Of a stretch of 49,006 nucleotides of DNA, positions 19,231 to 30,720 are shown piece by piece. The DNA comes from Laspinema palackyanum D2a (lineage in GTDB: Bacteria > Cyanobacteriota > Cyanobacteriia > Cyanobacteriales > Laspinemataceae). How positions within the stretch are numbered: the first letter of the stretch is position 1; each line of letters opens with the position of its first letter. The stretch is from the NCBI GenBank assembly GCA_025370845.1, contig JAMXFF010000019.1, positions 83,141 to 132,146 of the forward strand, read 5' to 3'. A program made the translations under genes and the position numbers. The notes below the pieces were generated by a model that searched no databases, was not told the origin of the DNA, and worked only from the letters and a program-made list of their open reading frames with translations.

Positions 19231-22158
19231 ATGAGAAAAAAACTGATTGAAGTTGCCCTCCCCCTGGAAGCGATTAATGCTGAATCGGCCCGAGAAAAAT
19301 CGATTCGGCATGGGCATCCTTCAACCCTGCATTTGTGGTGGGCGCGGCGACCTTTAGCCGCTTGTCGAGCAGTTTTGTGGTCTTCTTTGGTGGATGACCC
19401 CTCCAGTTGGCCGGATAAATTCCCCACAGAAGAAGACCAAAAGCGAGAACGGGAGCGCTTATTTGATATTTTGGGGCGAATCACCATTGAGACGGATAAA
19501 AAAGGCAATCACAAACAAGTTGTCCGGGGTTTAGTGTCTTGGGATGACATCAAAAACCCGGCAATCATTGATGAAGCGCAAAAAGAAATTGCCCGATGTT
19601 TAGCTTGGGACCGGGGAGAGGAACCGCCCACTCAACCGGATGCGGTGCGGGATTATATTGCTAAATATGCACCTCCAGCTTATGACCCGTTTGCCGGGGG
19701 TGGGTCGATTCCTTTAGAGGCACAACGGTTAGGATTAGAAGCTCATGCCAGTGATTTGAATCCCGTTGCGGTATTAATTAATAAAGCCTTAATTGAAATT
19801 CCCCCGAAGTTTAAAGATTTGCCTCCGATTAATCCTGAGAATCGGCAGAAAAAGGGGATGAATTTCTGGAAAGCGGCTCAAGGATTAGCGGCAGATGTGC
19901 GCTATTACGGGCAGTGGATGCGCGATCGCGCGTTCCAACGGATGGGGCATTTATATCCCAAGGTGGCATTACCAAAAGAATATGGGGATGATGCTGAAGC
20001 GACGGTGATTGCTTGGTTATGGGCGCGAACAGTGAAATGTCCCAACCCGGCTTGTGGTTGTCAGATGCCGTTGGTGAAAAGTTTTCAGCTTTCCACGAAG
20101 AAGGGGAAAGAGGCTTGGGTTCAGCCAAAGGTGCAGCAGGGTCAGGGGGAAAGTGAGCCTAATGGGGAGATGATGGCAGAGACTGCCGTCCCTCGGATTC
20201 GCTTTCAGGTGCAGTCAGGAACGGGAGAAGTGCCAGATGGGACGGTGGGTCGCAAGGGGGCGGTTTGTCTGGCTTGTGGAGCCCCTGTGGGGTTAGACTA
20301 TGTGAGGTCTGAAGGTTGTGGGGGGCGCATGGGGGCACAGTTGATGGCGATCGTCGCCGAAGGAAACAAGGGCCGGATTTATTTATCGCCGACCCATGAA
20401 CAGGAACAGATTGCTAATTCTGCTCAACCCAAATGGCAGCCCGAGAGTGAGTTGATTTGTAAATCGGGGGTCATTAATGCGCCTTTATATGGCATGACAA
20501 AACACGCTGATTTATTCACATCTCGTCAATTAGTTGCCCTAACTACTTTTAGTGACTTGGTGAGTGAAGCGAAAAAAAAGGCGTTTCAAGATGCAGTTTG
20601 TGCCCGGTTATCCGATGATGATGTGCCTTTGAATGAGGGGGGTACGGGGGCGAGGGCTTATGGGGAGGCGATCGCCACTTACTTAGCTTTTGCTGTGGAT
20701 AAAAGCTCGGATTATTGGAGCAATCTATGTACATGGGGCATTAGTGGAGAAACCATGAGTCATGTATTTACAAGACAAGCTATTCCAATGACTTGGGATT
20801 TTTGCGAAGCCAATCCCCTCAGTGATTCCACCGGAAATTTTAATGGGGCGATTAATTGGGTTGTACAAGTTCTTGAAAATCATGAAAATGGCAATTGTAA
20901 ATCTGAGGTATTCCAACATGATGCAACTTTGATTCATGAAAATGACTCCCGACCCAAAATAGTATCAACCGACCCGCCCTATTATGATGCTGTACCTTAC
21001 GCAGATTTATCGGATTTTTTCTATACATGGCTGCGTCCCAGTGTGAGTTCAATTTATCCAGACATTTGTAGTACCCTGTTAGCGCCTAAACATCAAGAAA
21101 TGGTAGCGGATACCTTTCGCCACGGTAGCAAGCAAAAAGCAAAAGATTTTTTTGAATCCAGCCTCATTAAATTATTTAATCGTATCAATAATCTCAACCA
21201 TCGTGATTATCCGGTAACGGTTTATTACGCACTTAAGCAGTCGGAAACCGATGATAACAATAACGTTGCTTCGACAGGTTGGGAAACAATTTTAGAAGGC
21301 TTAATGCAGGCTAATTTTAGCATTAGTGGAACCTGGCCATTAAGAACAGAAAGAAGTGCCCGAATGAGAAACCTTGACTCAAACGCCCTCGCTTCCTCTA
21401 TCGTTCTTATCTGCCGCCCTCGTCCAGAAACTGCCCCCAAAATCACGCGCCGCCAATTCCTCAGTGAACTCAAAAAAGAACTCCCCAAAGCCCTAAAAAC
21501 CCTCCAACAAGGCAATATCGCCCCGGTAGACTTGGCCCAAGCCAGTATCGGACCCGGGATGGCAGTCTACTCCCAATATACTGCGGTCCTCGAAAATGAT
21601 GGTTCCCCCATGCGAGTTCGCACCGCTTTACAACTGATTAATCAACTCCTAGATGAATACCTCACCGAACAAGAAGGAGAATTTGATAGCGATACCCGTT
21701 GGGCGTTGACCTGGTTTGAACAACATCAGTTCAATGAAGGACAATATGGCGATGCAGAAACCCTTTCCAAAGCCAGAAATACCAGCATTCAAGGCTTAGA
21801 ACAAGCGGGAATTTTAACCGCCAAAGCCGGAAAAGTCCGCCTACTGAAACGGTCAGAACTGCAACCGAATTGGAATCCAGAACAGGATAATCGCGTCCCT
21901 CATTGGGAAATCACCCAACACCTGATTCGCGCCCTCGACCAAACCGGAGAAATCGGTGCAGCCGAACTCCTCGCCAAACTCGGAGATGGCGGAGAAATTG
22001 CCCGAGATTTAGCCTATCGACTCTATAACCTCTGTGATAGAAAAGGTTGGTCAGCCGAAGGAATTGGCTATAACAGCCTAGTGATTTCTTGGCCTGAAAT
22101 CAGCCGATTAGCCAGGGAATCTAAGAAGTCTGAACCCATCCAAGGCAGCCTGTTTTAA
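19231..22158 (+). CDS. DUF1156 (COG1743) adenine-specific DNA methyltransferase, copy A
   Basis: 975 residues. The N-terminal DUF1156 block (RKKLIEVALPLEAINAES, then HPSTLHLWWARRPLAACRA) leads to an AdoMet-binding motif DPFAGGGS at residue 152. A zinc ribbon follows (C270, C275, C277 and C346-x2-C349), and the catalytic motif DPPYYD begins at 581. DPPY-type motifs indicate N6-adenine or N4-cytosine methylation. The C-terminal ~260 residues are specific to this family. Such proteins are associated with phage defence, where they would mark host DNA. The downstream helicase, second methyltransferase and DUF499 gene support this. Against copy B, the ends are almost identical in DNA, while residues ~297-430 and ~490-715 diverge. 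Confidence 0.93.
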   Translation: MRKKLIEVALPLEAINAESAREKSIRHGHPSTLHLWWARRPLAACRAVLWSSLVDDPSSWPDKFPTEEDQKRERERLFDILGRITIETDKKGNHKQVVRGLVSWDDIKNPAIIDEAQKEIARCLAWDRGEEPPTQPDAVRDYIAKYAPPAYDPFAGGGSIPLEAQRLGLEAHASDLNPVAVLINKALIEIPPKFKDLPPINPENRQKKGMNFWKAAQGLAADVRYYGQWMRDRAFQRMGHLYPKVALPKEYGDDAEATVIAWLWARTVKCPNPACGCQMPLVKSFQLSTKKGKEAWVQPKVQQGQGESEPNGEMMAETAVPRIRFQVQSGTGEVPDGTVGRKGAVCLACGAPVGLDYVRSEGCGGRMGAQLMAIVAEGNKGRIYLSPTHEQEQIANSAQPKWQPESELICKSGVINAPLYGMTKHADLFTSRQLVALTTFSDLVSEAKKKAFQDAVCARLSDDDVPLNEGGTGARAYGEAIATYLAFAVDKSSDYWSNLCTWGISGETMSHVFTRQAIPMTWDFCEANPLSDSTGNFNGAINWVVQVLENHENGNCKSEVFQHDATLIHENDSRPKIVSTDPPYYDAVPYADLSDFFYTWLRPSVSSIYPDICSTLLAPKHQEMVADTFRHGSKQKAKDFFESSLIKLFNRINNLNHRDYPVTVYYALKQSETDDNNNVASTGWETILEGLMQANFSISGTWPLRTERSARMRNLDSNALASSIVLICRPRPETAPKITRRQFLSELKKELPKALKTLQQGNIAPVDLAQASIGPGMAVYSQYTAVLENDGSPMRVRTALQLINQLLDEYLTEQEGEFDSDTRWALTWFEQHQFNEGQYGDAETLSKARNTSIQGLEQAGILTAKAGKVRLLKRSELQPNWNPEQDNRVPHWEITQHLIRALDQTGEIGAAELLAKLGDGGEIARDLAYRLYNLCDRKGWSAEGIGYNSLVISWPEISRLARESKKSEPIQGSLF

Positions 22159-22486: not shown

Positions 22487-25400
22487 ATGGTACAACTGGA
22501 AGACCTGACTCGTGGGACAACCATTAAAGGTATTATCCCCCATCAAAACATCACCGTCATTGATACCCAGTGGCATGGCAGTGATGCAGTTGAGATCATT
22601 TATAAGGATGCAAACGGACAACTTCATAACCAAATTCTGTACAGACATGATGAATGCACCCTGGAAATTGTCACAGAAGGGCAACCCTGGAGTTTTAATG
22701 GGAATGGTGCCCTGCTGCGCCTGGTTTCTGAAGCCCATCGGATTCGCTTGGCGCATTTATTCGACCCCCTGCTGGCTGTCCATACCTCCCTGGTAGAACC
22801 GCTTCCTCACCAAATTTCCGCAGTTTATGAGGTCATGTTAACTCGACAGCCTCTGCGATTTTTGTTGGCCGATGACCCGGGGGCTGGGAAAACTATTATG
22901 GCGGGGTTATTGATTCGAGAATTGCTGATTAGAGGGGATTTGCAACGCTGCTTGATTGTTTGTCCCGGGAGTTTGGCAGTGCAATGGCAAGATGAGTTGT
23001 TTCAAAAATTTCATCTGCGGTTCGAGATTTTGACCAATGACCGCATTGAATCTGCTCACACTGGGAATGCTTTTACAGAAATGCCCCTGCTGATTTGCCG
23101 ATTAGATAAACTTAGTCGCAATGATGATTTGCAAGCCAAACTGAGTCAAACCGATTGGGATTTAGTGGTGGTGGATGAGGCCCATAAAATGTCTGCCTCA
23201 TTTTTTGGGGGAGAAGTTCGCGAAACCAAGCGCTACAAACTCGGTAAGCTGCTTTCTACCCTAACTCGTCATTTCCTGCTGATGACGGCGACGCCTCACA
23301 ATGGGAAGGAAGAGGATTTTCAGCTATTTTTGGCGCTTTTAGATGGCGATCGCTTTGAAGGACGATTCCGCGATGGAGTCCATGTCTGCGATACCTCCGA
23401 CTTAATCCGCCGGTTAGTCAAAGAAGACCTGCTCAAATTTGATAGTACACCCCTCTTCCCCGAACGTCGCGCCCATACCGTCGAATATGCCCTCTCGGAC
23501 TTAGAGGCAGTCCTCTACAAACAGGTCACTGACTATGTAAAGGATGAATTTAACCGCGCTGAAGCCCTGATGAATGATGGACGCCGGGGGACCGTGGGAT
23601 TTGCTTTGACCATTTTGCAACGTCGCCTTGCCTCCTCTCCTGAAGCAATTTATCAATCCCTACAAAGACGAAGAACTCGCCTCCAAAAACGCCTGCGAGA
23701 AGAAGAGATTTTACAACGAGGACTCACTGCTGAACTTGAAAACAATTTCATCATTAATCCAGAGGATTTGGATGATGATTTTGAAGAGTCAAACAGTGAT
23801 GAACGGGAAGCAACGGAAGCAGAAGTGGTGGATTTAGCCACTGCGGCGCGGACGATCGCCGAGTTGCAAGTGGAAATCCATTGTTTGGAAGAACTGGAAA
23901 AACTCGCCCTGAAAGTCAGACGCAGTGGCAAGGACCGCAAATGGGAAGAACTCTCCAAAATCCTGCAAAACCGCGATGAAATGTTTGATGCTGGGGGTCA
24001 TCGGCGCAAACTGGTGATTTTTACCGAACATCGGGATACTTTAAACTACCTCACCGAACGAATCCGGACCCTTCTCGGACGTTCAGAAGCGGTGGTGACC
24101 ATTCATGGCGGGATGGGACGGGAGGAGAGAAAGAAAGCCGAAGAAGCGTTTAAACAGGATGTTAACGTAGAGGTTTTGATTGCTACTGATGCCGCAGGGG
24201 AAGGGATTAATTTGCAGCGATCGCATTTGATGGTAAATTATGACCTCCCTTGGAACCCGAATCGGTTAGAACAGCGGTTTGGACGGATTCACCGCATCGG
24301 GCAAACTGAGGTTTGTCATCTCTGGAATTTGTTAGCGGGGGAAACCCGGGAAGGGGATGTTTATTTGTCCCTGCTGCGGAAACTGGAGATTGAGCAAAAA
24401 GCCCTGGGGGGTAAAGTTTTTGATGTATTGGGGAAAGCGATCGCCGGGAAAGAACTGCGAGAATTGCTGATTGAAGCCATTCGCTATGGCGATCGCCCGG
24501 ATATCAAAGCCAAACTGAACCAATTCGTAGCCGATCGCCTAGATCGAGTCCGCTTAGAAGAATTACTAGAAGAACGTGCCCTAGCCCGAGATATCATGGA
24601 TGCGACCCGAGTCCAACAGATTCGCGAAGATATGGAACGGGCCCAGGCGCGGAAAATCCAACCCCATTTTATCGCCTCTTTCTTCTTAGAAGCCTTCCAA
24701 CGCTTAGGGGGAAGCATTCGACAGCGCGAACCCCAGCGCTATGAGATTACCAACGTTCCGGCAACCCTTCGCAATCGCGATCGCCTGATTGGGATGGGAG
24801 AACCCATTCTGCGCCGCTATGAGCGAATTTGCTTTGAGAAAGACCTAATTAGCGTTCCCGGAAAACCCTTAGCTGATTTTGTTTGTCCAGGACATCCCCT
24901 CCTGGATGCCACCCTAGACTTAACTTTAGAACGGCATCGAGACTTGCTGCGACAGGGGGCGATTCTCGTTGATGAAACAGATTTTGGGGAAGAAGTGCGG
25001 GCATTAATTTACCTCGAACATTCCATTCAGGACGCCCGTACAGATAAAGATGGACGGCGGCGGGTGGTTTCTCGCCGGATGCAGTATGTGGAGATTGGAT
25101 TGGGGGTTCCTGCTGGGCTTCCCCCTCATCCCCTCACCCCTTCTCCCACCAGGGGAGAAGGGGGACCGGAGGTGCGAGGGACATCTGGGACTAACCCACA
25201 TCCCCCTCTTACTCTTCCTCCCCTCTCCCCGGGTGGGAGAGGGGCCGGGGGTGAGGGGGACTATCTTGCGCCACTTCCCCCTCATCCCCTAACCCCTTCT
25301 CCCACCAGGGGAGAAGGGGGACCGGAGGTGCAGGGAACCTCTGGGACTAACCCTCATCCCCCTCTTACTCCCCTCTCCCCTGGTGGGAGAGGGGCCGGGG

Positions 25401-26998
25401 GTGAGGGGGACAACTGGCAACAACGCACCCCCAATTCTCCACTTTCTCCCACCCCGAGAAAAGGAGAACAAGATCGGTGGGAGATTTCTCCCGCCTTAAG
25501 AAAAAGGATGACCGAAATTGCTCGTCAGCTAAGGAAACAACAAACCCCCAGTGAAAAAATTCTTTGGCAAGCGATTCGCGGGAAAAAATTAGACGATCGC
25601 AAGTTTCGTCGCCAGCAACCGATTGGTGCTTTTGTGGTGGATTTCTTTTGTGCAGCAGAGCGTTTAATTGTAGAGGTAGATGGTGCTGTACATAACGACC
25701 CAGAACAAAAAGCACTTGATACCGAGCGCCAGTTTTTATTAGAATCGTTGGGACTCCGATTTGTTCGATTAAGTGCTACTGAGGTTGAAACCGATCTTTC
25801 CACTTGTCTTGAGCAGATTCGACAGGCTTTTTCCCCTCTTACTCTTCCTCCCCTCTCCCCGGGTGGGAGAGGGGCCGGGGGTGAGGGGGACTATGTTCAA
25901 GGAAATCCCCCTCATCCCCTAACCCCTTCTCCCACCAGGGGAGAAGGGGGACCGGAGGTGCAACCAACTCCAGCAACTAACCCTCAACCCCCTCTTACTC
26001 TTCCTCCCCTCTCCCCGGGTGGGAGAGGGGCCGGGGGTGAGGGGGAACTCCCCAAAGGAGCAACCCGCAACGCAGGCTATGCCCCTTATTTAGATTATCG
26101 ACCCTTAACCGAATCCGAAACATCCCTAGTAGAAAGCCCGATCGCCGGTTTGGGACTGCGCCATGACATTGAAAATCAGGCCACCAGTTATGCGATCGCC
26201 CACCTTGTCCCCCAACATCTCCAGGAAATCCGCACTCGCCAAAAAGACCTCATCGATAAAACCGTCCGCGCCGTCAAAGACCGACTGCTTAAAGAAATTA
26301 ACTACTGGGACCACCGCGCCACCGACCTCCGGGTACAGGAACAGGCAGGCAAACCCAACGCCAAACTCAACTCCGCCAAAGCCCAACAGCGCGCCGATGA
26401 CCTCGCCGCCCGACTCCAGAAACGCCTGACTGAACTGGAACAGGAATGCAAACTCTCTCCCTTGCCTCCCGTAGTCGTGGGTGGGGCCCTGGTCATTCCC
26501 ATTGGTTTATTGCAACGCCTGCAAGGAATTAAAGCCTCCACCGCCACCCCCTTTGCCCGAGAAACCAAGCGGGTAGAACTGAGGGCAATGGCAACCGTAA
26601 TGGCCGCAGAACAGGCATTAGGCTATCAACCCCGGGATGTCAGCGCTTCTAAGTGCGGCTATGACATCGAATCCCGCAACCCTGAAACCGGACATTTGCG
26701 CTTTGTCGAAGTCAAGGGCAGGATAGAAACAGCAGATACCGTCACCGTCACCAAAAATGAAGTCATCACCGCCCTCAATCAGCCGGATCACTATGTTCTG
26801 GCCCTGGTTCAGGTTCCCCTAGACCCCAATGAACCCGAGGGGACAGCCAGCAATCCGGTGACCCCCAAAGACTGTATCCTGCGCTATGTCCACCAGCCTT
26901 TTCAACGGGAACCGGATTTTGGCGTTTGCAGTGTCAATTACGAGTGGAAAGAACTATGGAATCGAGGACAAGATATAGCAGTCCTAAATGATTTTTAA
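22487..26998 (+). CDS. SNF2-type defence helicase with DUF3883 domain and an inserted DUF559 segment
   Basis: 1503 residues. The helicase core has Walker A GAGKT (132-136), DEAH at 230-233, LLMTATPHNGKEEDF, then the C-terminal lobe (LVIFTEHRDTLNYL, ATDAAGEGINLQ, LEQRFGRIHRIGQ). After a long helical region, residues ~879-1187 are an insertion of palindrome-encoded PLTPSPTRGEG and LSPGGRGAGGEG peptides around a complete DUF559 nuclease domain (~998-1115; D1052, E1063, D1065 and nearby His). Native sequence resumes at NAGYAPYLDYRPL. The C-terminus is a DUF3883, PD-(D/E)XK-like domain (GYDIESRNP, FVEVKGR, about 1391-1440). The helicase resembles DrmD-type proteins. It presumably translocates on DNA and works with the flanking methyltransferases and DUF499 protein. 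Whether the insertion is tolerated is unknown. Confidence 0.9.
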   Translation: MVQLEDLTRGTTIKGIIPHQNITVIDTQWHGSDAVEIIYKDANGQLHNQILYRHDECTLEIVTEGQPWSFNGNGALLRLVSEAHRIRLAHLFDPLLAVHTSLVEPLPHQISAVYEVMLTRQPLRFLLADDPGAGKTIMAGLLIRELLIRGDLQRCLIVCPGSLAVQWQDELFQKFHLRFEILTNDRIESAHTGNAFTEMPLLICRLDKLSRNDDLQAKLSQTDWDLVVVDEAHKMSASFFGGEVRETKRYKLGKLLSTLTRHFLLMTATPHNGKEEDFQLFLALLDGDRFEGRFRDGVHVCDTSDLIRRLVKEDLLKFDSTPLFPERRAHTVEYALSDLEAVLYKQVTDYVKDEFNRAEALMNDGRRGTVGFALTILQRRLASSPEAIYQSLQRRRTRLQKRLREEEILQRGLTAELENNFIINPEDLDDDFEESNSDEREATEAEVVDLATAARTIAELQVEIHCLEELEKLALKVRRSGKDRKWEELSKILQNRDEMFDAGGHRRKLVIFTEHRDTLNYLTERIRTLLGRSEAVVTIHGGMGREERKKAEEAFKQDVNVEVLIATDAAGEGINLQRSHLMVNYDLPWNPNRLEQRFGRIHRIGQTEVCHLWNLLAGETREGDVYLSLLRKLEIEQKALGGKVFDVLGKAIAGKELRELLIEAIRYGDRPDIKAKLNQFVADRLDRVRLEELLEERALARDIMDATRVQQIREDMERAQARKIQPHFIASFFLEAFQRLGGSIRQREPQRYEITNVPATLRNRDRLIGMGEPILRRYERICFEKDLISVPGKPLADFVCPGHPLLDATLDLTLERHRDLLRQGAILVDETDFGEEVRALIYLEHSIQDARTDKDGRRRVVSRRMQYVEIGLGVPAGLPPHPLTPSPTRGEGGPEVRGTSGTNPHPPLTLPPLSPGGRGAGGEGDYLAPLPPHPLTPSPTRGEGGPEVQGTSGTNPHPPLTPLSPGGRGAGGEGDNWQQRTPNSPLSPTPRKGEQDRWEISPALRKRMTEIARQLRKQQTPSEKILWQAIRGKKLDDRKFRRQQPIGAFVVDFFCAAERLIVEVDGAVHNDPEQKALDTERQFLLESLGLRFVRLSATEVETDLSTCLEQIRQAFSPLTLPPLSPGGRGAGGEGDYVQGNPPHPLTPSPTRGEGGPEVQPTPATNPQPPLTLPPLSPGGRGAGGEGELPKGATRNAGYAPYLDYRPLTESETSLVESPIAGLGLRHDIENQATSYAIAHLVPQHLQEIRTRQKDLIDKTVRAVKDRLLKEINYWDHRATDLRVQEQAGKPNAKLNSAKAQQRADDLAARLQKRLTELEQECKLSPLPPVVVGGALVIPIGLLQRLQGIKASTATPFARETKRVELRAMATVMAAEQALGYQPRDVSASKCGYDIESRNPETGHLRFVEVKGRIETADTVTVTKNEVITALNQPDHYVLALVQVPLDPNEPEGTASNPVTPKDCILRYVHQPFQREPDFGVCSVNYEWKELWNRGQDIAVLNDF
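25121..26046 (+). mobile_element. DUF559 endonuclease segment bracketed by GC-rich palindromic repeats, inserted in the helicase
   Basis: Order: full repeat unit (25121-25260), full unit (25277-25410), DUF559 coding segment (25411-25832), half unit (25833-25890), full unit (25907-26046). Each full unit joins two hairpins, one around CTTCTCCCACCAGGGGAGAAG and one around CCCCTCTCCCCGGGTGGGAGAGGGG. Everything stays in the helicase frame, with no stop. The DUF559 part has an internal ATG at 25508 preceded by AAAAGG and keeps its catalytic residues, but has no stop of its own. A related palindrome recurs at 30050-30080 and 30643-30677. I infer a repeat-associated mobile passenger; no transposase is visible. 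Confidence 0.8.
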
Positions 26999-27129: not shown

Positions 27130-30036
27130 ATGAGAAAAAAACTGATTGAAGTTGCCCTCCCCCTGGAAGCGATTAATGCTGAATCTGCCCGAGAAAAATC
27201 GATTCGGCATGGGCATCCTTCAACCCTGCATTTGTGGTGGGCGCGGCGACCTTTAGCCGCTTGTCGAGCAGTTTTGTGGTCTTCTTTGGTAGATGACCCC
27301 TCCAGTTGGCCGGATAAATTCCCCACTGAAGAAGACCAAAAACGAGAACGGGAGCGCTTATTTGATATTTTGGGGCGAATCACCATTGAGACCGATAAAA
27401 AAGGGAATCATAAACAAGTTGTCCGGGGTTTAGTATCTTGGGATGACATCAAAAACCCGGCAATTATTGATGAAGCCCAAAAAGAAATTGCCCGATGTTT
27501 AGCTTGGGACCGGGGAGAGGAACCGCCCACTCAACCGGATGCGGTGCGGGATTATATTGCTCAATATGCACCGCCAGCTTATGACCCCTTTGCCGGGGGT
27601 GGGTCAATTCCTTTAGAGGCACAACGGTTAGGATTAGAAGCTCATGCCAGTGATTTGAATCCGGTGGCGGTATTAATTAATAAAGCGTTAATTGAAATTC
27701 CCCCGAAGTTTAAAGATTTGCCTCCCATTAATCCAGAGAATCGGCAGAAAAAGGGGATGAATTTCTGGAAAGGTGCTCAAGGATTAGCGGCAGATGTGGG
27801 ATTTTATGGGCAGTGGATGCGGGACGAAGCGTTTCAACGGATTGGGCATTTATATCCCAAGGTGGCATTACCGAAAGAGTATGGGGAGGACGCTGAAGCG
27901 ACGGTGATTGCTTGGTTATGGGCGCGGACAGTGAAATGTCCTAACCCAGCTTGTGGTTGTCAAATGCCTTTGGTGAAAAGTTTTGAGCTTTCCACGAAGA
28001 AGGGGAAAGAGGCTTGGGTTCAGCCGCAAATTGACCGGGAACAGACTCCGCCACGGATACAGTTTGATGTAAAAACTGGGAAGGGGGAAGCACCGGACCC
28101 GCCAAAAACAGGACGGGGTGCTAGTTTCAAGTGTTTAGCTTGTGAGCAACCTGTAGGGGAAAAATATATTAAGGCTGAAGCTATGGCTGGGAAAATGGAT
28201 GCTCAGTTAATGGCTATTGTAGCAGACGGGAAAAATGGCAGAGTATATTTATCTCCAAATTCTGATCATGAGGTAATTGCTAAAAGTGAAGTTCCCGCGT
28301 GGCAACCTCAACAACACCTAGCTAATGATCCTCGCAATATTTGGTGTGTTTCTTATGGATTAGATACATTTGATAAGCTGTTCACCTCTCGTCAATTAGT
28401 AGCCCTAACAACATTCAGTGATTTGGTGAGTGAAGCCAAAGAGAAGGCGTTTCAAGATGCAGTGGCTGCGGGGTTATCGGATGATGATGTGCTATTGAAT
28501 GATGGCGGCACGGGGGCGAGGGCTTATAGTGAGGCGATCTCAACTTATTTAGCTTTTGCTGTTGATAAAGCTAGTGATTATTGGTCGGCTCTTTGTAGCT
28601 GGCATTCTTCGGGTGAAAAAATGAGAAATACCTTTGGCCGTCAAGCAATACCGATGGTTTGGGATTATGCAGAATGTTGTATTTTTAGTCAATCATCAGG
28701 CAATTGGATGGCTTGCATTGACTGGGTGTGGAAGGTAATAGAAAAATCCACCATTTTCCTAGAGGGGAAGGTCTTACAACATGATGCAACTGTGATTCAC
28801 GAAAATGATTCACCCCCCAAAATCGTATCAACAGATCCGCCATATTACGACAATATTGGTTACGCTGACTTATCTGATTTTTTTTATGTCTGGCTACGTC
28901 GTTCTCTTCTAGCTATTTATCCAGACATTTGCAGCACTCTCTTAGTTCCTAAAATTCAAGAACTGATTGCCTCTCCCTATCGTTTTGATGGTAGCAAAAA
29001 AAAGGCTCAAGCATTTTTTGAAGAAGGACTGGGCCAAGCATTTAAACGAATGCATGATATTTCCCATGCCAGCTATCCCCTCACAATTTACTATGCCTTT
29101 AAGCAAGCTGAAACCGAAAAAAAAGGGAAAGGCGAAGAATCTGTTTCCTCTACGGGTTGGGAAACCATGTTAGAAGGTTTGATTCAATCGGGTTTCAGTA
29201 TTAATGGCACTTGGCCCATGCGTAGCGAACTGAGTAACCGCATGATTGCCAGTGACTCAAACGCCCTTGCTTCCTCCATCGTTCTTGTCTGCCGCCCTCG
29301 TCCAGAAACCGCCCCCAAAATCACCCGACGCCAATTCCTCAGCGAACTCAAAAAAGAACTCCCCAAAGCCCTAAAAACCCTCCAACAAGGCAATATCGCC
29401 CCGGTAGACTTGGCCCAAGCCAGTATCGGACCCGGGATGGCAGTCTACTCCCAATACGCTGCCGTCCTCGAAAATGATGGTTCCCCCATGCGAGTTCGCA
29501 CCGCTTTACAACTGATTAATCAACTCCTAGATGAATACCTCACCGAACAAGAAGGAGAATTTGATAGCGATACCCGTTGGGCGTTGACCTGGTTTGAACA
29601 ACATCAGTTCAATGAAGGACAATATGGCGATGCGGAAACCCTTTCCAAAGCCAGAAATACCAGCATTCAAGGCTTAGAACAAGCGGGAATTTTAACCGCC
29701 AAAGCCGGAAAAGTCCGCCTACTGAAACGGTCAGAACTGCAACCGAATTGGAATCCAGAACAGGATAATCGCGTCCCTCATTGGGAAATCACCCAACACC
29801 TGATTCGCGCCCTCGACCAAACCGGAGAAATCGGTGCAGCCGAACTCCTCGCCAAACTCGGAAATGGCGGAGAAATTGCCCGAGATTTAGCCTATCGACT
29901 CTATAACCTCTGTGATAGAAAAGGTTGGTCAGCCGAAGGAATTGGCTATAACAGCCTAGTCATTTCTTGGCCGGAAATCAGCCGATTAGCCAGGGAATCT
30001 AAGAAGTCTGAACCCATCCAAGGCAGTCTGTTTTAA
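27130..30036 (+). CDS. DUF1156 (COG1743) adenine-specific DNA methyltransferase, copy B
   Basis: 968 residues, paralogue of copy A 7.9 kb upstream in direct orientation. The N-terminal ~215 residues and the last ~260 are almost identical to copy A, including at silent positions. The middle differs: residues ~297-420, with a shorter, different linker before the second zinc pair (FKCLACEQPVG), and ~485-710 around the catalytic DPPYYD at 569. The motif I DPFAGGGS is intact. Both copies should be active by motif content. The divergent parts are good candidates for target recognition. It starts about 130 bp after the helicase stop. A 12-bp inverted repeat containing TAGCAGTCCTA spans the helicase end and this gap (26975-26986, 27070-27081). 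Confidence 0.93.
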   Translation: MRKKLIEVALPLEAINAESAREKSIRHGHPSTLHLWWARRPLAACRAVLWSSLVDDPSSWPDKFPTEEDQKRERERLFDILGRITIETDKKGNHKQVVRGLVSWDDIKNPAIIDEAQKEIARCLAWDRGEEPPTQPDAVRDYIAQYAPPAYDPFAGGGSIPLEAQRLGLEAHASDLNPVAVLINKALIEIPPKFKDLPPINPENRQKKGMNFWKGAQGLAADVGFYGQWMRDEAFQRIGHLYPKVALPKEYGEDAEATVIAWLWARTVKCPNPACGCQMPLVKSFELSTKKGKEAWVQPQIDREQTPPRIQFDVKTGKGEAPDPPKTGRGASFKCLACEQPVGEKYIKAEAMAGKMDAQLMAIVADGKNGRVYLSPNSDHEVIAKSEVPAWQPQQHLANDPRNIWCVSYGLDTFDKLFTSRQLVALTTFSDLVSEAKEKAFQDAVAAGLSDDDVLLNDGGTGARAYSEAISTYLAFAVDKASDYWSALCSWHSSGEKMRNTFGRQAIPMVWDYAECCIFSQSSGNWMACIDWVWKVIEKSTIFLEGKVLQHDATVIHENDSPPKIVSTDPPYYDNIGYADLSDFFYVWLRRSLLAIYPDICSTLLVPKIQELIASPYRFDGSKKKAQAFFEEGLGQAFKRMHDISHASYPLTIYYAFKQAETEKKGKGEESVSSTGWETMLEGLIQSGFSINGTWPMRSELSNRMIASDSNALASSIVLVCRPRPETAPKITRRQFLSELKKELPKALKTLQQGNIAPVDLAQASIGPGMAVYSQYAAVLENDGSPMRVRTALQLINQLLDEYLTEQEGEFDSDTRWALTWFEQHQFNEGQYGDAETLSKARNTSIQGLEQAGILTAKAGKVRLLKRSELQPNWNPEQDNRVPHWEITQHLIRALDQTGEIGAAELLAKLGNGGEIARDLAYRLYNLCDRKGWSAEGIGYNSLVISWPEISRLARESKKSEPIQGSLF

Positions 30037-30120
30037 ACCAACTGTCTTTCCGGTCCCCCTTCTCCCCCGGTGGGAGAAGGGAGTAAGAGGCCCTTACAAG
30101 GCTAGGTTTTTTTACGTCTA

Positions 30121-30437
30121 GCAGGGATTGACCGCAATTCCGGTCCCCCCCCTTACCAAGGGGGGGCTAGGGGGGGTCCTCCGTTATGTGGCCCTCGCCA
30201 CATAACCCACGATGATCCGCTTAAACGCCTGTAGAGAGGCGCGTCCCACCTGTTTTTTCCCCCTGGGGAGGGCCCCTTAGCAGGGATTGACCGCAATTCC
30301 GGTCCCCCCCCTTAGCAAGGGGGGGCTAGGGGGGGTCCTCCGTTATGTGGCCCTCGCCACATAACCCAAGATGATCCGCTTAAACGCCTGTAGAGAGGCG
30401 GGTCCTACCTGTTTTTTCCCCGTGGGGAGGGCCCCTG
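30121..30437. repeat. Two tandem 159-bp copies of a structured palindromic element
   Basis: The units starting at 30121 and 30280 differ at about six positions. Each holds CCGGTCCCCCCCCTTA, a G-rich arm, a perfect 10-bp hairpin GTTATGTGGC/GCCACATAAC (30183-30206; second copy from 30342), then CGCTTAAACGCCTGTAGAG and a CCCC-GGGGAGGGCCCC tail. An inverted right arm lies at about 30490-30531. The design matches the elements at 8169 and 34631 but with different sequence in the stem. Confidence 0.85.
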
Positions 30438-30525
30438 GAGGAGAACTCTTTATCCACTCATTCCGGCTTGAGGCGCACTCGCGCCTCAAGGAGACCCCCC
30501 CTAACCCCCCCTTGCTAAGGGGGGG

Positions 30526-30650
30526 GACCGGAATTGCGGTCAATCCCTTGGTAAGGGGGGGACCGGAATTGCGGTCAATCCCTTGGTAAGAGGGGGGACT
30601 GGAATTCCGGTCAATCCCTTGCTAAGGGGGGGGACTGGAATTCCGGTCCC
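30526..30650. repeat. 35-36-bp GC-rich minisatellite
   Basis: Units begin at 30526, 30561, 30597 and 30633 (GACCGGAATTGCGGTCAATC, then CCTTGGTAAGGGGG). Each has a palindromic core that is ACCGGAATTGCGGT in early copies and ACTGGAATTCCGGT in later ones. The array sits between the tandem 159-bp repeats and the copy of the helicase-type palindrome (30643-30677). The whole 30037-30720 gap is repeat and contains no gene. Confidence 0.8.
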
Positions 30651-30720
30651 CCTTCTCCCCCGGTGGGAGAAGGGGTTAGGGGATGAGGGGGACTCACTCA
30701 CTGAATAACAACCCAAAATT

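Follow-up and report, generated by a model that had tools for sequence, protein, structure and literature searches.

REP sequences and their REPINs are short GC-rich palindromes, often set as inverted doublets, and the RAYT gene that goes with them, a Y1/HUH single-strand transposase, is flanked by its own palindrome class, enzyme clade being paired with palindrome class and close paralogues being rare in one genome (PMC3116915); REPs are described as extragenic. Homing endonucleases of the EDxHD or Vsr-like type, such as I-Bth0305I, have occupied and empty alleles, and one published report places a Thermosynechococcus DUF559 gene in the EDxHD homing family (PMC9403480). Rickettsia palindromic elements (RPEs) are palindromes that have entered protein-coding genes without breaking the frame (PMC3733652). 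VsrA of Caulobacter, which shares the DUF559 domain family, is a stand-alone gene for a predicted mismatch-repair endonuclease, linked to DNA damage in cells that have no cytosine methylase; the word palindrome is absent from the main text of that report (PMC12907096).

The locus described here carries what is quite probably a selfish, homing-like mobile element, consisting of REP-like palindromes and a cognate DUF559 endonuclease and persisting in open reading frames as a translated linker plus nuclease. The palindrome-DUF559 element would work in the manner of both REP/RAYT and homing endonucleases, yet it belongs to neither group. Its enzyme is a DUF559 protein, a predicted PD-(D/E)XK nuclease, with no Y1/HUH single-strand transposase among Pfam and Foldseek matches, and several DUF559 clades, unlike REPs, lie in frame inside ORFs. 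It differs from homing endonucleases and inteins in that no intron or intein was found around the domain, which is bracketed by repeated palindromes and apparently stays in the protein, although one DUF559 clade (four loci) does reside within inteins. To our knowledge, RPEs have no nuclease gene and no coding capacity of their own, whereas this element carries DUF559, and its sequences and hosts are different.

The stretch of DNA analysed, termed the window, comprises 49,006 nucleotides of the 7.4 Mb genome of Laspinema palackyanum D2a. All three components of the Hma anti-phage system are matched in it by PADLOC, with hmaB on either side of hmaA and hmaC downstream (Table 1). The hmaA frame encodes 1503 aa and has no stop across the inserted segment; helicase domains are followed by DUF559 at aa 1007-1114 (Pfam, E 5.9e-30) and then by NOV_C. 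An earlier note on this DNA had placed a DUF559 domain and repeats in frame in a defence helicase, and the open frame, the Pfam match and the PADLOC assignment to HmaA bear this out. The catalytic motif is intact, D1052, E1063 and D1065 all being present as claimed, and the ATG at 25508 indeed has no stop codon of its own.

Table 1. Positions in the window of the interrupted hmaA gene, the parts of its insert and two solo palindromes nearby
Feature	Position	Strand	Remarks
hmaA (SNF2-type helicase, Hma anti-phage system), with in-frame interruption	22487..26998	+	ORF, Pfam, PADLOC
Insert relative to same-genus empty sites	25098..26068	+	at the position of the 7-codon linker of the sisters (G526, G482)
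Hairpin P1, copy 1	25137..25163	+	
Hairpin P2, copy 1	25220..25244	+	inverted counterpart of P1
Hairpin P1, copy 2	25293..25319	+	
Hairpin P2, copy 2	25370..25394	+	
DUF559 endonuclease domain with N-terminal extension	25475..25831	+	extension WEIS..M-like, common to clade B; possible internal ATG 25508
Hairpin P2, copy 3	25850..25874	+	half unit
Hairpin P1, copy 3	25923..25949	+	
Hairpin P2, copy 4	26006..26030	+	
Solo P1-class palindrome	30049..30081	-	downstream of second hmaB; 97% to element
Solo P1-class palindrome	30642..30692	-	upstream of hmaC; 98% to element

Alignment with uninterrupted homologues from two same-genus sisters (L054 and L055) sets the ends of the insert: native sequence ends after GTGGAGATTG at 25097 and picks up at AACGCAGGC (26069), and the sisters have the linker ESNGQPQ or ESSGPPQ in between. 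The segment is in frame, as had been proposed, but at about 970 bp is slightly longer than the 926 bp (25121-26046) first given. By eye, no target duplication is seen against the two sisters, the insert ends differ from the sisters' linker, and no fixed target sequence for the elements was noticed. Seven GC-rich hairpins (arms 10-11, loop 5) form three P1+P2 pairs and one lone P2, in agreement with the three full repeat units and one half unit reported before. P1 has the form CCCTCATCCCCTAACCCCTTCTCCC..GGGAGAAGGGG; P1 and P2 are one asymmetric hairpin in opposite orientations, and the P1-spacer-P2 arrangement thus resembles a REPIN. A 168-nt direct-repeat family has three members, which match the reference at 100, 90 and 67% and are spaced 156 and 630 nt apart, so the repeats are not a product of chance. 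The palindromes had also been called stop-free; this holds for one forward frame of each of the two 156-nt units tested, but the other two forward frames and all reverse frames are closed.

Two further observations concern the surroundings. The gap between hmaB and hmaC (30040-30692) is a dense palindrome array, which includes the two solo P1-class copies, hairpins of the form CCCCCCCTT..AAGGGGGGG and a family of GTTATGTGGCCCTCGCCACATAAC hairpins. The hmaB copies on the two sides of hmaA (19231-22158 and 27130-30036) have 81.8% amino acid identity overall, yet 592 of their final 600 nt are identical, which suggests recent gene conversion of the pair.

Could the insert be a cryptic intein or a self-splicing intron, removed from the protein or the RNA? 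A DUF559 clade inside inteins of N4/N6 methylases (L166, L170, L171, L200) gives the idea some footing. The window insert is, however, open in the host frame throughout, no intein domain is found among the Pfam matches of the window HmaA, and between 24700 and 26400 no Rfam family exceeds its gathering score, only look-alikes below every gathering score being shown. Splicing is thus very improbable, and an intron or intein at the window locus was rejected after the Pfam and Rfam searches. An ordinary insertion sequence was likewise rejected, as Pfam finds no transposase domain in the hmaA ORF.

How do relatives look at the same position? HmaA was found in two of seven other genomes of the genus searched (98% and 96% identical over a 379-aa query), and both sites are empty, with the 7-codon linker, so that the insert either arrived recently or has disappeared from the sisters. 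Among the best 30 of 58 listed HmaA matches, 27 linkers could be read (L062, L080 and L082 are unread), and the window alone has palindromes together with DUF559: none of the other 26 readable linkers carries DUF559, with repeats or without. A GC-rich palindrome-like insert stands alone in four (L066 and L079 detected by script, L067 and L074 by eye only), a CACAGAGACACAGAGG-type repeat in six, other repeats in three (L060, L069, L072), the 7-codon linker in 10 and other sequence in three. By script, hairpins with arms of at least 7 are found at the linker in only 3 of 26 loci. The HmaA linker is a tolerant landing site. Six loci (L056, L058, L059, L061, L064, L065) have in this linker an in-frame repeat of CACAGAGACACAGAGGACACGG type, different from the palindromes.

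DUF559 is matched in 240 of 386 genomes drawn from the window's phylum in a family search. A sample from the window's order and class consisted of the best 120 of 150 DUF559 matches listed for 80 of the 240 genomes; these 120 best-scoring loci come from 73 genomes chosen for having a match, a sample in which weak, decayed copies are under-represented. Left and right flanks share a repeat, at a score of at least 20, in 82 of the 119 scored DUF559 loci (L118 is unscored) compared with 5 of 239 control ORFs from the same loci, so that the search of cyanobacterial genomes suggested earlier gives a clear answer: palindromes bracket most of the DUF559 genes tested. The proportion is 66/96 for short ORFs (<400 aa) and 16/23 for long ones, and 57 of 85 representatives still have the repeat when 118 loci are collapsed at 85% identity. 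GC-rich hairpins on both sides are found at 41/96 short-ORF and 15/23 long-ORF loci and at 1/239 control ORFs. Family f31, of the same phylum and with genomes of 1.5-2.5 Mb, passes at 15 of 30 loci, a figure obtained without control genes. Below the threshold are 30/96 short-ORF, 7/23 long-ORF and 15/30 f31 loci. Where left and right repeats match directly, their spacing is a multiple of three in 11 of 12 in-frame loci (L157 is the exception) but in 11 of 44 free ones, a count that excludes 7 in-frame and 32 free loci that align better as inverted repeats. Outside the DUF559 elements most hairpins fall in non-coding DNA: ORFs totalling 622 kb have 14, and the remaining 325 kb has 34. The catalytic motif is recognized by a regular-expression script in 134 of 143 DUF559 loci and missed in nine; L090 and L097 have a changed catalytic residue as judged by eye.

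In the available parts of the open-access literature no link between DUF559 and palindromes was found, and the papers there with 'DUF559', 'palindromic' and 'repeat' only listed a prophage protein or dealt with a different domain, DUF5593. Phage records gave two weak matches. In one free-standing DUF559 clade (L114, L119, L120, L125, L127, L132) the N-terminus looks palindrome-encoded (NSCPPSSLAGRGLGGGVSWQ-like) by eye.

Palindrome class also goes with the clade of the enzyme. After exclusion of L135 and L143, which have internal stops, from tree, clusters and pairing, 123 of 141 DUF559 loci had a hairpin segment for the pairing test, the 18 without hairpins being left out. Between families, the share of pairs with similar palindromes rises with DUF559 identity, from 3% at 0.4-0.5 to 22% at 0.5-0.6, 50% at 0.6-0.7 and 66% at 0.7-0.85. 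Once 20 orthologous-looking pairs with alignable distal flanks are removed, palindromes are shared by 304 of 584 non-orthologous cross-family pairs at an identity of at least 0.6; for pairs of these loci with an identity under 0.5 the figure is 114 of 3918. In the within-genome test, a DUF559 was scored as a win if its palindromes were closer to those of its nearest other-family relative than were the palindromes of the other DUF559s in that genome, and 55 cases gave 49 wins, 4 losses and 2 ties. DUF559 clade thus matches palindrome class across families. Close DUF559 paralogues are rare within a genome, as with RAYTs (2 of 55 same-genome pairs reach 70% identity). Copy number shows a similar tendency: for three palindrome classes in eight genomes of the window's genus, 44 of 47 comparisons are concordant with the presence of the cognate DUF559 (stratified permutation p 0.00014). 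The link is not absolute, since 124 copies of one class are present in G449, where the cognate DUF559 is absent, and G427 has the cognate of another class with a single copy.

The abundance of one class where its cognate is absent, and the lack of a shared flank repeat at about a third of DUF559 loci, are what one would look for if DUF559 were itself the passenger: the palindromes would owe their spread to recombination or to some other enzyme, and DUF559 genes would collect them by sharing their intergenic hot spots. The clade-by-clade pairing across families, which extends to different DUF559s in one genome, and a frequency of shared flank repeats far above that of control genes render this improbable. 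The repeat-plus-nuclease passenger proposed in the earlier note is well supported by the bracketing, by the match of clade to palindrome and by three clades that lie in frame in many unrelated genes.

In the order and class sample, 24 of the 120 DUF559 domains are in ORFs of at least 280 aa. Inteins of N4/N6 methylases hold four of these (L166, L170, L200, and L171 via its similarity to L170); in them DUF559 is likely the endonuclease domain of the intein, at the GSGTT motif. The other 20 hosts are all DNA-modification genes (type ISP, MmeI-type, Eco57I-type and DUF1156; L150 and L162 were assigned through similarity to L116 and L156). Sixteen of these host ORFs have at least 975 aa and four look incomplete (L107, L121, L146, L150), that of L146 being broken into two overlapping frames. 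At L100 (698-4390) the part of the ORF upstream of the element matches the L101 gene (88%) and the part downstream the MmeI-type gene of L184 (89%), a chimaera across the element that may reflect recombination or MAG misassembly.

In-frame copies constitute separate DUF559 clades. The tree of 141 domains is built on few columns, leaves many forks unresolved and includes one pair flagged for long branches (L131/L105). It contains clade A, with 12 of 12 members in frame (support 98/87), clade B, with 12 rows including the window, eight of them in frame (100/99), clade C, with four members (100/99), and the intein domains as a fourth clade (98/95). The window element thus belongs to a clade found mostly inside ORFs. 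Unrelated hosts occur within one clade, among them, at L105, a TIR-nSTAND1-FGE protein from a Chloroflexi MAG, which indicates that the element has moved between genes. Clade B is in or beside the Hma operon three times: in HmaA (the window), in HmaB (L165) and in an hmaB-hmaC gap (L217). A RefSeq BREX PglX protein (WP_281009668.1, plasmid pPg_02 of Pseudanabaena galeata CCNP1313) has unit-DUF559-unit in frame directly before DPACGSGHF, with a DUF559 56.8% identical to that of the window. Chance or an assembly artefact was rejected with this plasmid protein and with in-frame cases in one-contig (G346, G382, G177) and two-contig (G103, G064) genomes. Clades A and B have an N-terminal extension, GARR.IP.. 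or WEIS..M. No ATG is found within the 48 codons that precede the domain in 16 of their 20 in-frame cases, and five of the 20, including the window, have no upstream ATG, GTG or TTG; GTG or TTG codons are present upstream of most clade A domains.

Are these nucleases maintained? DUF559 dN/dS is 0.04-0.13 in six of the seven pairs with an estimate (12 were tried, and one of the six is an intein pair); L108/L115, with very few changes, gives 0.49. The nuclease is under purifying selection. Its predicted structure (pLDDT 88) has as top match 3hrl, a Neisseria endonuclease-like protein also found by sequence profile; in the Foldseek comparison of this model the homing endonuclease I-Bth0305I (3r3p) comes next (E 1.6e-4, prob 1.0) and Vsr is at rank 9, and the sequence profile against I-Bth0305I gives E 0.013. 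The predicted fold is that of EDxHD/Vsr-type, PD-(D/E)XK enzymes.

Divergence also sets the insert apart from its host in the closest pairs, as seen from dS estimates that are short and partly saturated: 0.055 in the insert versus 0.83 and 0.40 in the host for L108/L115, 0.33 versus 0.93 and 0.75 for L156/L162, 0.10 versus 0.82 and 0.30 for the intein pair L170/L171, and 0.09 versus 0.26 and 0.97 for the closest ispE pair, L258/L259. In more diverged pairs (L142/L146, L100/L184, L149/L162, L258/L261, L259/L261) insert dS is not below that of the host. In L156/L162 identity is raised across the insert and for some 300 bp to its left and right, the pattern that co-conversion would give.

Housekeeping genes are hosts in family f31. 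Palindrome-like linkers and an in-frame DUF559 lie directly before the Walker A motif GVTASGKT of priA (L028, L031, L034, L037) and within ispE (L027, L041, L045, L051), and five of these eight internal inserts pass the flank-repeat threshold (L027, L028 and L045 fail). Terminal DUF559 fusions are seen in hydE (L033), an mpaA-like gene (L038) and ispE (L044). The L027 ispE frame, of 577 aa, contains two DUF559 domains. Since the 182 of 191 genomes with an ispE match have one match each, an occupied ispE is the only copy found in those genomes.

Sites are found empty, with palindromes alone, or with palindromes and DUF559. For ispE, 28 of 30 linkers are readable (8 with DUF559, 19 empty and one partial) and for the MmeI-type site 26 of 30 (18 empty, 4 with palindromes only, 1 with another repeat and 3 with palindromes and DUF559), the loci of both sets being those most similar to an occupied-gene query, so that occupied fractions are not rates. 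The partial ispE (L262) retains the right-hand end of the element and is apparently an in-frame excision scar. G131 has palindrome-only and DUF559 versions of the MmeI-type site in separate gene copies (L239, L255, L149). HmaB is empty in the window copies, has two palindromes at L217 and DUF559 at L165; in L217 the hmaB-hmaC interval also holds an unfused clade-B DUF559 that has palindrome pairs on both sides.

Was the domain acquired for its function? DUF559 might have been recruited as the nuclease of a helicase or methylase, to form a one-chain restriction or defence enzyme in which the palindromes are arrival scars. The DNA-methylase or restriction-modification hosts of all 20 non-intein in-frame cases in the order and class sample, the three associations with the Hma operon, the purifying selection and a catalytic motif that is widely kept and intact in the window are in keeping with this. 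But the two same-genus HmaA orthologues have no DUF559, that of L217 is palindrome-bracketed yet unfused, palindromes by themselves occupy the same linkers, and the same architecture is present in priA and ispE, where a nuclease has no obvious role; a use in defence cannot explain ispE. Domain acquisition is therefore unlikely, if less so than the passenger role for DUF559 considered above. The suggestion that the insertion adds a nuclease to the defence protein fails as a general reason, as the same kind of element is in priA and ispE; at the HmaA locus itself it may apply. The bias to DNA-modification hosts in the order and class sample is not explained by selfish insertion alone. Linker tolerance, the mobility of the genes and a benefit to the host may each have a part in the difference between methylase and defence hosts in one sample and priA and ispE in f31.

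For the selfish element, a route can be proposed in which a cut by DUF559, followed by repair, mobilizes both the palindromes and the DUF559 gene. The enzyme would cut at or beside its own palindrome or the empty allele, and repair off an occupied copy, by homing or gene conversion, would install the palindromes at a new site, in some cases together with the gene. An insertion that preserves the reading frame of a tolerant linker would persist, since the translated palindromes form Pro/Gly-rich linkers and DUF559 is able to fold by itself. Recombination between the flanking palindromes could later delete the gene, so that only a lone palindrome or a scar is left, and the nuclease domain of the window HmaA would be an accident of insertion. 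The term homing-like, used in the earlier note, is borne out only indirectly, by the I-Bth0305I-like fold, by the intein clade, by occupied, empty and palindrome-only alleles at the same sites, and by the lower divergence of the insert in the closest, but not the more distant, pairs.

A broader proposal makes DUF559 enzymes the drivers of a distinct class of mobile DNA, in which each palindrome family would be mobilized by its own PD-(D/E)XK nuclease. Specialized clades would live in proteins, unspliced, with no stop of their own, a conserved N-terminal extension usually without a preceding ATG, and linker-like palindromes; they would colonize linkers of DNA-modification, defence and single-copy housekeeping genes and be lost by palindrome recombination. 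The case for this is evenly poised, slightly weakened by the GTG and TTG codons that precede most clade A domains.

The DUF559 domain is common but has no assigned function; with a palindrome partner it gains a role that can be put to the test. It would be the second type of enzyme, after RAYT, behind the short palindromes scattered in bacterial genomes. A protein annotated as DUF559 fused to a methylase or helicase may be host to a parasite and not be a restriction enzyme. In-frame, apparently unspliced elements in the single-copy ispE would show a selfish gene living within another protein, and elements of this kind would provide a route to new linkers and domains.
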